A stretch of DNA of 64,000 bases from Provencibacterium sp. GTDB lineage: Bacteria > Bacillota > Clostridia > Oscillospirales > Ruminococcaceae. The position numbers were made by a program, and so were the translations under genes. Location of the stretch: positions 124,001-188,000 of the forward strand of contig JAAWDS010000006.1 of NCBI GenBank assembly GCA_022793895.1. Direction: 5' to 3'. Positions 38,737 to 44,385 of the stretch are shown one piece after another. The notes below the pieces were generated by a model that worked only from the letters and a program-made list of their open reading frames with translations, searched no databases and was not told the origin of the DNA. Positions within the stretch are counted from its first letter, which is position 1. Each line of letters begins with the position of its first letter.

Positions 38737-40449
38737 ATGATTATTATCGGTAAATTACATTATAAGGAAGAAAATGGATTTGCACGCGTAGAAAGCATCA
38801 TAAAAACCTATGGAAAACCTGATTTTTTGATTTATGTAGAGGTTGAACAAGCCTATGGAAAATATCTGGTAACGGATAGGGCGGATGCTTTTCTGGCAGG
38901 ACTTTTCATCAAAGCCATGACCGCTGGCGAAGATATTACTTGCGAAGATCCTGTTTCTTCCGATCTAAAATTCAAGCTAGAAAAGCTACTGATCCGCACC
39001 CTCGCCAAACACGATGAAAGATTTCATGAAACCCAAATATATGCCGATATAATAGATGAGCCTATCCCCAACGCGGGTGCTGTCGGAACTGGAATTTCTT
39101 TGGGACTGGACTCGTTTGATACGATCGCCGATACATATGACTCAAAATATCCGGGAATGAAGCTGACCCATCTGGTAACATTTAACGGAGGGGTATTTGG
39201 CGGCTATTATCAGAAAAATAATTGGGATTACTGTGCGGCAAAGTTATATAAAAGAATTCAATTGGTTGCAGAGGAATTAAAATTACCTCTCATTCCTATA
39301 TCGACAAACATTCATAAATATGTACGTTTAAAAGGGAATTTTTACTCAACCTGTATGATTTTACTATTCATAATGAGTCTTGGTAAGTTGTTTAAAACCT
39401 ATTTCATTTCTTCTGATGGAGTAGACTTCTCTCTCTTTAACGTTCAGTCTACCTATTTAGATGATATGACTGTCTATGATCTATTAACTCTTTACTGCTG
39501 TTCTATTCCTACCGGCGTACAGTTTATTTCAGGAGGCGGTGAAAAGGATAGGTTGGAAAAATTAAAAACCATTTCTAAGTTTCCTATTGCTGTCAGAAAT
39601 TTGCAATCCTGTCTTACAGAACATTATAACTGTATGTACTGTCTAAAGTGCAAAAGAAATCTACTGGCATTAGATGCACTGAATCTTTTAGACAAATTTA
39701 AAGATTCTTATGATATAGGTTACTACTATATACATCGCAATGAATATCTTCGATATTTATGTCAACAGATACAAAACCATAAACTTGAAGCGGGATTACT
39801 CATGCCTGCATATCAAATCATAAAGCAACGGGAACCGGCAGTAATTGATCAGATTGAGCAGGATTTAGGGAGGACTGCAAAGCAAAGCCTAGAAATTCAA
39901 CGGCAGAGAGACATTTATAAAGAATATTCAAGACTATTTCGCAATGTATTGGCCATTCCCAATTATATCGATAAATTAAAGGAATGGTTCAGCCTGAACA
40001 ATATAAAAACTATTATTATTTATGGTCCTGGTGGAAATGAATCTACCCAGTGTTTGGCTGCTTTATGTAAGCAGATAGAAGTAAAGATCGATTACATCGT
40101 AGAAGACGTAAAAAAAGGGACCAAAGTCTCTATCCCCCGTTTGCCGGAAAGCACCATCGATTACCCACCCTGTGATGCTGTTATTATCTGTAATATGGAT
40201 AAACCACAGGTTATAAAAAGAAAATTATCCGAATTTTTAACAATACCGATCTACGAGGTCAAGGATGTCCTGACAATGACTATTAAGTATAGAAATAATA
40301 ACTTATATTTGATTCTGAAAATTGCTGATTTCGCAATCGAATTATATGTTTTTTTAAATTATTTAATTCGATTTTGTATGCAAATATTACAGATCAATTA
40401 TTTGTTTTTTTACTATACTTTTATTAACGCTACCCGAAAATATGCTTAG
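38737..40449 (+). CDS. PP-loop ATPase-like protein (QueC/ExsB-like) with Cys cluster and C-terminal Rossmann-like domain
   Basis: GTGISLGLDSFDTI (variant SGGxDS), CLTEHYNCMYCLKCKRN Cys cluster, IIIYGPGGNESTQCLAAL Rossmann-like segment. Confidence 0.6.
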   Translation: MIIIGKLHYKEENGFARVESIIKTYGKPDFLIYVEVEQAYGKYLVTDRADAFLAGLFIKAMTAGEDITCEDPVSSDLKFKLEKLLIRTLAKHDERFHETQIYADIIDEPIPNAGAVGTGISLGLDSFDTIADTYDSKYPGMKLTHLVTFNGGVFGGYYQKNNWDYCAAKLYKRIQLVAEELKLPLIPISTNIHKYVRLKGNFYSTCMILLFIMSLGKLFKTYFISSDGVDFSLFNVQSTYLDDMTVYDLLTLYCCSIPTGVQFISGGGEKDRLEKLKTISKFPIAVRNLQSCLTEHYNCMYCLKCKRNLLALDALNLLDKFKDSYDIGYYYIHRNEYLRYLCQQIQNHKLEAGLLMPAYQIIKQREPAVIDQIEQDLGRTAKQSLEIQRQRDIYKEYSRLFRNVLAIPNYIDKLKEWFSLNNIKTIIIYGPGGNESTQCLAALCKQIEVKIDYIVEDVKKGTKVSIPRLPESTIDYPPCDAVIICNMDKPQVIKRKLSEFLTIPIYEVKDVLTMTIKYRNNNLYLILKIADFAIELYVFLNYLIRFCMQILQINYLFFYYTFINATRKYA

Positions 40450-40480
40450 GCAGAAAGTAATTTTAAGAAGGGGTTTGCCA

Positions 40481-43279: not shown

Positions 43280-43371
43280 ACATTGTCACTGATTAAATTT
43301 AGATAGTAGTGGATATTTTCAAAAAACATTTCTATTTAAAGTCTAGTTTACAAAAGCGGGAGGGCAGAGTA

Positions 43372-44385
43372 ATGAAGGGGATACGCGTACTATTTCAAGC
43401 GCCTGGAAAAGCGTGTATACAAGAATTTGAAGTGCGTGCGCCAAAGTCAAATGAAGTTATTGTAAGAGTAATCTATTCACTCATTTCATCCGGAACAGAA
43501 AAGGCTTATCTTTCGTGTTCCAATAACACAGCTCAAAAATTCCCGACAGTACCCGGTTATTCCAGCGTGGGTATTGTCGAGCAGTACGGAACCGATGTTC
43601 AAAATTTTTCAATTGGAGATCGTGTCTTTGTCTCCTATGGGGGACACGCTAACTACAATATTAAGCCAGAGTCCAGTATTATCAAAATACCTGATTCCGT
43701 CTCCTTACAAGAAGCCGCATTCACTCGATTAGCCAGCTTCCCTCTATTAGCTCTTAGACGCGCACAACTGGAGATAGGAGAATCAGTAGTAATCGTCGGT
43801 TTGGGTATGTTGGGGCAATTTGGCGTTCAACTTGCACGAATAGCAGGAGGACTACCTGTAATTGCCGTGGGCAATCGAGAAATCCGAAAGCAAAAGGCTC
43901 TGCAATATGGAGCAAAATTTGTTCTCTCCCCAGACGATCCGGAATTAACGAACAAAATCATGGAATATACCCAAATAACTGGCACCGGCGGAGCCAATGT
44001 TGTTTTAGAAACCTCCGGACAGGTAAGCGCGTTGATTAGTTGCTTGAAATATACTGCAAAACATGGCCGGGTATTATTAAACGGTTGTAATCGAGTTACA
44101 GATCAGCCCATTGATCTTTACAAGTATATCCATCTTAGAGGGGTTTCTTTAATCGGAGCACACGACAAAACCCGCCTCCCTTACAGTTCTTGGAAAGGAA
44201 ATTGGACTGCTAAACGGGATTATATGACCGTTCTAGGACTACTTGAAGACGGAAGATTGGAAGCAAAATCTATGATTTCTGAATTGGTAAAGCCTGAGTC
44301 AGTATCAGAAATCTATAACCGCCTTTTGAATGATAGAGAGTTTCCACTAGGTGTTTTACTGGATTGGTCAGAAAGTAAAACATGA
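43372..44385 (+). CDS. MDR-superfamily (zinc-type alcohol dehydrogenase-like) oxidoreductase
   Basis: VPGYSSVGIVEQYG, VVIVGLGMLGQFGVQLAR Rossmann motif; start at MKGIRV after a GGGAGGG RBS. Confidence 0.85.
   Translation: MKGIRVLFQAPGKACIQEFEVRAPKSNEVIVRVIYSLISSGTEKAYLSCSNNTAQKFPTVPGYSSVGIVEQYGTDVQNFSIGDRVFVSYGGHANYNIKPESSIIKIPDSVSLQEAAFTRLASFPLLALRRAQLEIGESVVIVGLGMLGQFGVQLARIAGGLPVIAVGNREIRKQKALQYGAKFVLSPDDPELTNKIMEYTQITGTGGANVVLETSGQVSALISCLKYTAKHGRVLLNGCNRVTDQPIDLYKYIHLRGVSLIGAHDKTRLPYSSWKGNWTAKRDYMTVLGLLEDGRLEAKSMISELVKPESVSEIYNRLLNDREFPLGVLLDWSESKT

Follow-up and report, generated by a model that had tools for sequence, protein, structure and literature searches.

What three unusually AT-rich genes contribute to the end of a galactofuranose (Galf) polysaccharide cluster, and whether they act together, is the question raised by this locus from a gut-type bacterium (genome 99.5% complete). 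The window, by which we mean the whole 64,000-nucleotide stretch of Provencibacterium sp. DNA that was analysed, carries the trio as consecutive plus-strand genes (38,737-44,385) that close the cluster:

30821..31942, + strand: glf, UDP-galactopyranose mutase (context; TIGR00031, 406.7 bits)
33765..35549, + strand: GlfT2-like galactofuranosyltransferase (context; PF17994)
35611..38709, + strand: fusion of a pyruvyl transferase-type domain (PPT) to GlfT2, left neighbour of the trio, not AT-rich (context; domain matches, alignment)
38737..40449, + strand: gene 1, QueC/QatC-fold PP-loop ATPase-like protein of 570 aa, Rossmann-like domain at the C-terminus (AF2 model, Foldseek, hhalign)
40481..43279, + strand: gene 2, PPT-MenD fusion; the reading frame opens at 40442 and the likely start is Met14 (domain matches)
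43373..44385, + strand: gene 3, MDR-superfamily oxidoreductase; the reading frame opens at 43309 (PF00107, PF08240)

We put the probability at roughly 0.5 that the trio is a laterally acquired glycan-decoration cassette at the end of the Galf cluster, combining ThDP chemistry, reduction, pyruvylation and activation. It is highly likely that the trio was acquired as a decoration cassette and that its MenD-like enzyme is non-canonical, and the specific carboligation-reduction scheme is a tentative proposal. The MenD-like enzyme probably contributes to an unusual sugar or side group of a cell-surface glycan.

The original prediction held that the trio is more AT-rich than both flanks, hinting at horizontal acquisition, and computation revealed a shift stronger than the visual impression. 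In 1-kb windows, GC is 36-41% across ~38.7-44.4 kb versus 50-60% leftward. For genes 1, 2 and 3, GC is 0.353, 0.378 and 0.421 (35-42%), and GC3 is 0.335, 0.366 and 0.351 (0.34-0.37), compared with GC3 values of 0.45-0.74 for the remaining genes of the window. The adjacent left and right genes have GC/GC3 values of 0.503/0.584 and 0.510/0.487. Codon-usage distances of the trio from the rest of the window are 9.8-11.0, against 2.6-5.9 for other genes of more than 500 codons, with higher values (up to ~12) in some short genes only. Both edges of the AT-rich block are sharp, and the right end is abrupt at ~44,530. This composition fits recent acquisition.

The probable true starts of the three genes are at 38,737, ~40,481 and 43,373, and a promoter and terminator scan gave promoter-like matches at background level (25 versus 22 in shuffled sequence). 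At the edges of the block neither an integrase nor an IS was found, and a mobile element with terminal repeats was rejected because no such repeats were seen there either. The flanking genes tested were absent from the two sister genomes of the genus in which an empty-site comparison was sought. The left flank had been described as glf/GlfT2, and both glf and a GlfT2-like gene are present, but the immediate left gene is a PPT-GlfT2 fusion rather than a plain GlfT2. In the next locus rightward of the trio there are ABC-transporter-like genes.

The landmarks of gene 2 are as follows:

40532..41368, + strand: PPT domain (PF04230, E 4.9e-24)
41675..43276, + strand: MenD-family ThDP domain (TIGR00173, PF02776/PF02775; LmoMenD, E 6.8e-48)
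41741..41743, + strand: Arg of GTRN, equivalent of the canonical MenD GSRS Arg, retained (alignment)
41807..41809, + strand: catalytic Glu of DERSAAY (LmoMenD Glu56), retained (alignment)
42854..42856, + strand: LmoMenD Arg412 position (2-oxoglutarate carboxylate), Ile in gene 2 (alignment)
42905..42907, + strand: LmoMenD Arg431 position (2-oxoglutarate carboxylate), Met in gene 2 (alignment)

The Met14 start agrees with the L012 and L013 homologues, which begin at or near the equivalent Met. In the PPT half, alignment shows retained equivalents of CsaB R148 and H308, both of which are required for PEP binding in CsaB, where R148K abolished activity (PMC10435577). A different pattern is found next door. 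The PPT half of the left neighbour, PPT-GlfT2 (35611-38709), has lost both CsaB PEP-binding residues, and stand-alone PPTs adjoining GlfT2 (L012 1191-2339; L013 3820-4926) have Lys and Tyr at these positions. Overall, PPTs fused to or associated with GlfT2 carry Asp or Lys for the Arg and Leu or Tyr for the His; as read from these residues, the GlfT2-linked protein could be a non-catalytic PPT conserved in Galf clusters. The host has a second PPT-type locus, with an FrhB-PPT fusion, on contig C21 (L172 1-2578).

Both domains named in the original prediction were found by profile, but MenD chemistry did not survive scrutiny. Gene 2 scores 256.9 bits against TIGR00173 menD (NCBIfam), above the cut-off of 244.2, and matches PF02776 at E 8.4e-21; the best matches of its ThDP half are MenDs, with AHAS far behind, placing it outside the AHAS/YerE subclass. 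Since the menD equivalog cut-off is passed, automated pipelines may label this half a menaquinone enzyme although the organism lacks the pathway. Besides the catalytic Glu and the GSRS-type Arg, the ThDP domain retains the DRP-type Arg and the Gln. LmoMenD Arg412 and Arg431, which hold the 2-oxoglutarate carboxylate (PMC12312563), are both replaced. At these two positions Arg is present in 19/19 canonical MenDs aligned, and the change argues against 2-oxoglutarate as donor. Other MenD-like proteins from glycan loci have Arg at the first position and usually Thr, Val or Ile at the second, and L104 retains both. Since at least one of the two arginines missing from the window protein persists in the nearest MenD-like proteins, the donor may differ among members of the clade. 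The GSRS- and DRP-type arginines are kept in the window protein, L104, L105 and L106, and are lost in most other MenD-like proteins of glycan loci. All 19 glycan-locus MenD-like rows form one clade separate from the canonical set (support 100/100, branch 2.94).

Gene content points the same way. The fusion is the sole MenD-like protein above the cut-off in the host genome, and PF00425 (chorismate-binding enzyme) has no match in this 99.5%-complete assembly, although the same search was positive in 14/14 control genomes; there is therefore no isochorismate source. Because of this gene content and the lost substrate-binding residues, the MenD-like half appears unable to do the usual vitamin K job. 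A search of open-licence papers for MenD together with polysaccharide pyruvylation gave nothing relevant. Elsewhere, in two Synergistaceae MAGs (L062 6728-8487; L078 5453-7202), two ORFs (324 and 239 aa) together make up a split MenD-like enzyme.

A ThDP-domain-only search of 392 genomes of the class, together with a phylum search, provided 12 informative loci besides the window. A PPT is nearby in each of the 10 that are uncut by a contig end (L104, L105, L106, L107, L108, L109, L112, L010, L170 and L171), and a reductase (SDR, extended SDR "EPI" or aldo/keto reductase, AKR) is nearby in 11/12. In L104 (4225-7365), an AKR with 4Fe-4S motifs is itself fused to the MenD-like domain. This fusion adjoins an FrhB-PPT fusion and an IspD-like cytidylyltransferase. 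Among loci that have gene 1 and no MenD-like gene, 17/69 have a PPT within six genes; Fisher's test against the 10/10 gives p 5.9e-6, a guide only, given that relatedness is uncorrected and the 10/10 was entered by hand. As judged from these neighbourhoods, the recurrent core is a PPT, a MenD-like enzyme and an NAD(P) reductase.

Gene 1 follows a partly different distribution. It is found in only two of the MenD-started loci (L010 and L112), and thus may act separately; the nine MenD-like loci reached via gene 1 carry a bias in favor of its presence, and duplicates occur among the loci (L083 and L112 represent one contig, and L010 is L075). It recurs beside a PPT, usually a PPT-FrhB fusion (L012-L015, L017, L029, L041, L210), also in the same family. 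Two of these loci, L012 and L013, are window-like Galf clusters; the order in L013 is glf, GlfT2, PPT, GlfT2, PPT-FrhB, gene 1, and L012 is similar. In Selenomonadaceae Kdo loci (L061, L064, L066, L068, L071, L074, L076), gene 1 homologues follow kdsA/kdsD/kdsC-like genes, sometimes as tandem copies. Others (L007, L033, L036, L042, L055) have genes for a KdsB-like cytidylyltransferase and a DRE-TIM aldolase-like protein nearby, some with HAD and Asp-racemase-like genes too. Among the genomes searched, the exact trio was found nowhere besides the window, and the PPT-MenD fusion was likewise seen in the window only. Co-occurrence of the trio elsewhere thus fails for the exact set and holds for its parts, PPT/MenD-like/reductase and gene 1/PPT; their recurrence in polysaccharide loci and in Galf clusters, respectively, upholds the predicted decoration role.

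The family of gene 1 is almost unnamed in Pfam. The protein has no match in Pfam, NCBIfam, PADLOC or PDB sequences, neither it nor any of 54 homologues matches PF06508 (QueC family), and 4/54 homologues weakly match DUF6395. Three features could be located:

39088..39114, + strand: PP-loop motif TGISLGLDS, residues 118-126; the family form is TGxSxGVDS (54 homologues)
39610..39651, + strand: zinc-type motif C292-x6-C-x2-C-x2-C305, QueC/QatC-like (conservation in 54 homologues)
39994..40275, + strand: C-terminal Rossmann-like extension, common to the L012 and L013 homologues (identity, secondary structure)

T118, G119, S121, G123 and D125 of the PP-loop are invariant across the 54 homologues, as are C292, C302 and C305, and C299 is conserved in at least 90%. 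L012 and L013 hold the two closest homologues (46% and 38% identity). With the AlphaFold (AF2) model (pLDDT 85.6), Foldseek retrieved a single PDB entry under E 0.001, QatC (9y01_B, E 8.9e-5, prob 1.00). Given a low global TM-score of 0.29-0.36 and an rmsd of 10.5 A, the likeness is a core match and not a close superposition. Alignment by hhalign to two QueC sequences from relatives (E 5.4e-6, Prob 85.7) pairs QueC SGGVDS with gene 1 SLGLDS and also aligns the CxxC zinc motifs. Fold and profile comparison thus place gene 1 near the QueC/QatC PP-loop group, with both the PP-loop fold and the four-Cys zinc motif of the QueC family present, consistent with the adenylating-type fold first proposed. 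The corresponding zinc ligands of QatC are C334, C354, C357 and C360 (PMC13279940). Canonical preQ0 synthesis was rejected, as PF06508 is not matched; elsewhere in the host genome PF06508 gives weak matches only. An anti-phage role (QatC/Cap9) was also rejected, as there is no PADLOC match and the neighbours are polysaccharide or Kdo genes. QueC-fold enzymes use ATP for carboxylate activation or conjugate formation (PMC13329287), and by analogy gene 1 may activate a carboxylate.

Gene 3 was correctly called an MDR reductase from its PF00107 and PF08240 matches; its membership of the trio is less secure. A GGAGG just upstream of its ATG is a good ribosome-binding site, and it starts 93 bp past gene 2 on the same strand and with the same GC3 as genes 1 and 2. 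Read by eye, the usual zinc ligands are absent, with SSGTEK and PGYSS in place of the expected Cys and His; gene 3 therefore lacks the catalytic Cys/His zinc ligands of a zinc-dependent MDR alcohol dehydrogenase. Its relatives (37-43% identity) adjoin Gfo/Idh-type and AraC genes in sugar-catabolism-like loci, and the MDR has no recurrent partner link in the loci searched. Because its relatives sit in catabolic-type loci, the case for including it in the module is one of adjacency and composition, together with the analogy to the SDR, EPI and AKR partners seen elsewhere.

Several other explanations were weighed against a decoration cassette. If the ThDP half were a genuine MenD (SEPHCHC synthase) that a fusion had captured, the TIGR00173 score and the retained Glu, Arg and Gln residues would be accounted for, but the missing PF00425 enzyme, the loss of both carboxylate arginines and the position of the ThDP half outside the canonical clade make this very unlikely, and it was rejected. 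Least probable of all is that the genes are degenerate and free of selection: the AT-rich composition, the foreign codon usage and the altered P-loop Gly of gene 1 (SLGLDS for SGGxDS) could be taken as decay, but the frames are long and intact, and catalytic and metal residues are retained in gene 1 and in the PPT and ThDP domains, the donor-pocket change excepted.

The genes could instead be independent neighbours, with gene 1 and the PPT forming a Galf-decoration pair as in L012/L013, the MenD half a later add-on and the MDR merely an adjacent sugar-catabolism enzyme. The commoner pairing of gene 1 with PPT-FrhB, the Gfo/Idh and AraC company of the MDR relatives and the ABC-transporter-like genes to the right would all suit this account. 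Since the strand and GC3 of the MDR gene match those of genes 1 and 2 across the 93-bp gap, and reductases almost always partner the MenD-like clade, we regard it as unlikely, although it is the most credible of the alternatives. Less likely again is that the cassette makes an acyl or amide substituent that is not a sugar, in place of a C-branched sugar; gene 1 would activate the ThDP product, which would then be linked on as an amide. QueC-fold enzymes do turn carboxylates into amides or conjugates (PMC13329287, PMC13279940), and the Selenomonadaceae Kdo loci that contain gene 1 make a carboxylate sugar, but no acyltransferase family is prominent among the recurrent neighbours of gene 1 and the MenD-like clade mostly occurs without gene 1. 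The non-sugar substituent originally envisaged is thus no better supported than a C-branched sugar.

In the decoration cassette that we favor, the MenD-like domain would decarboxylate not 2-oxoglutarate but another 2-oxo acid, such as pyruvate, and could pass the acyl anion on to a sugar-derived acceptor that is unsaturated or bears a keto group, in the manner of YerE in yersiniose synthesis. The MDR might then reduce the new ketone, as SDR, epimerase-type or aldo/keto reductases would in sister loci. The PPT would place a pyruvate ketal from PEP onto the same repeat unit, and gene 1, with ATP, could activate a carboxylate (pyruvyl, uronate or ulosonate) to give an amide or a different conjugate. 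Of the genes scanned in the window's cluster, none was recognised as a keto-sugar-forming dehydratase. More broadly, and tentatively, an undescribed MenD-family ThDP clade may work with PPTs and interchangeable reductases to produce C-branched or acyl-modified surface-glycan sugars in Bacillota, joined in the window by a QueC-fold family that amidates or conjugates glycan carboxylates. If true, the clade would offer testable candidates for gut-bacterial glycan decorations.

Each component resembles a known system and departs from it. Like QueC, QatC and Cap9 (PF06508), gene 1 combines a PP-loop fold with a C-x(n)-C-x2-C-x2-C zinc motif, and like QatC it carries N- and C-terminal extensions; unlike them, it has no PF06508 or PADLOC match, bears the motif SLGLDS and belongs to a family of polysaccharide and Kdo loci, which the searched text of the PF06508 survey does not mention as a setting. 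Gene 1 adds a large QueC-fold family beyond queuosine synthesis and phage defence. The PPT half resembles CsaB-type PPTs (PF04230) in its R148/H308 equivalents, but is joined to a ThDP enzyme, whereas its relatives are joined to FrhB-type iron-sulfur proteins. With MenD (TIGR00173), the ThDP half shares the three-domain architecture, the catalytic Glu, the GSRS- and DRP-type Arg and the Gln, and its nearest solved structures by sequence are MenDs; it differs in the Ile/Met replacements, in its separate clade, in its fusion to a PPT and in a host without an isochorismate supply.

By function, the closest analogue would be YerE with a ketoreductase. YerE is the ThDP carboligase precedent for branched-chain sugars (PMC12247030), and Pau7, an AKR, reduces a C-4 acetyl branch (PMC4753412). 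Unlike those enzymes, gene 2 belongs to the MenD family and not to the YerE/AHAS-like subclass, no NDP-keto-sugar pathway was identified in the window, and carboligation is a candidate activity. Both systems bring a ThDP enzyme and an NAD(P) ketoreductase together in a locus for surface polysaccharide, and in L104/L090 the partner is likewise an AKR. If the clade does make branched or acylated sugars, ThDP-based sugar carboligation would reach the MenD family, beyond YerE-type enzymes.
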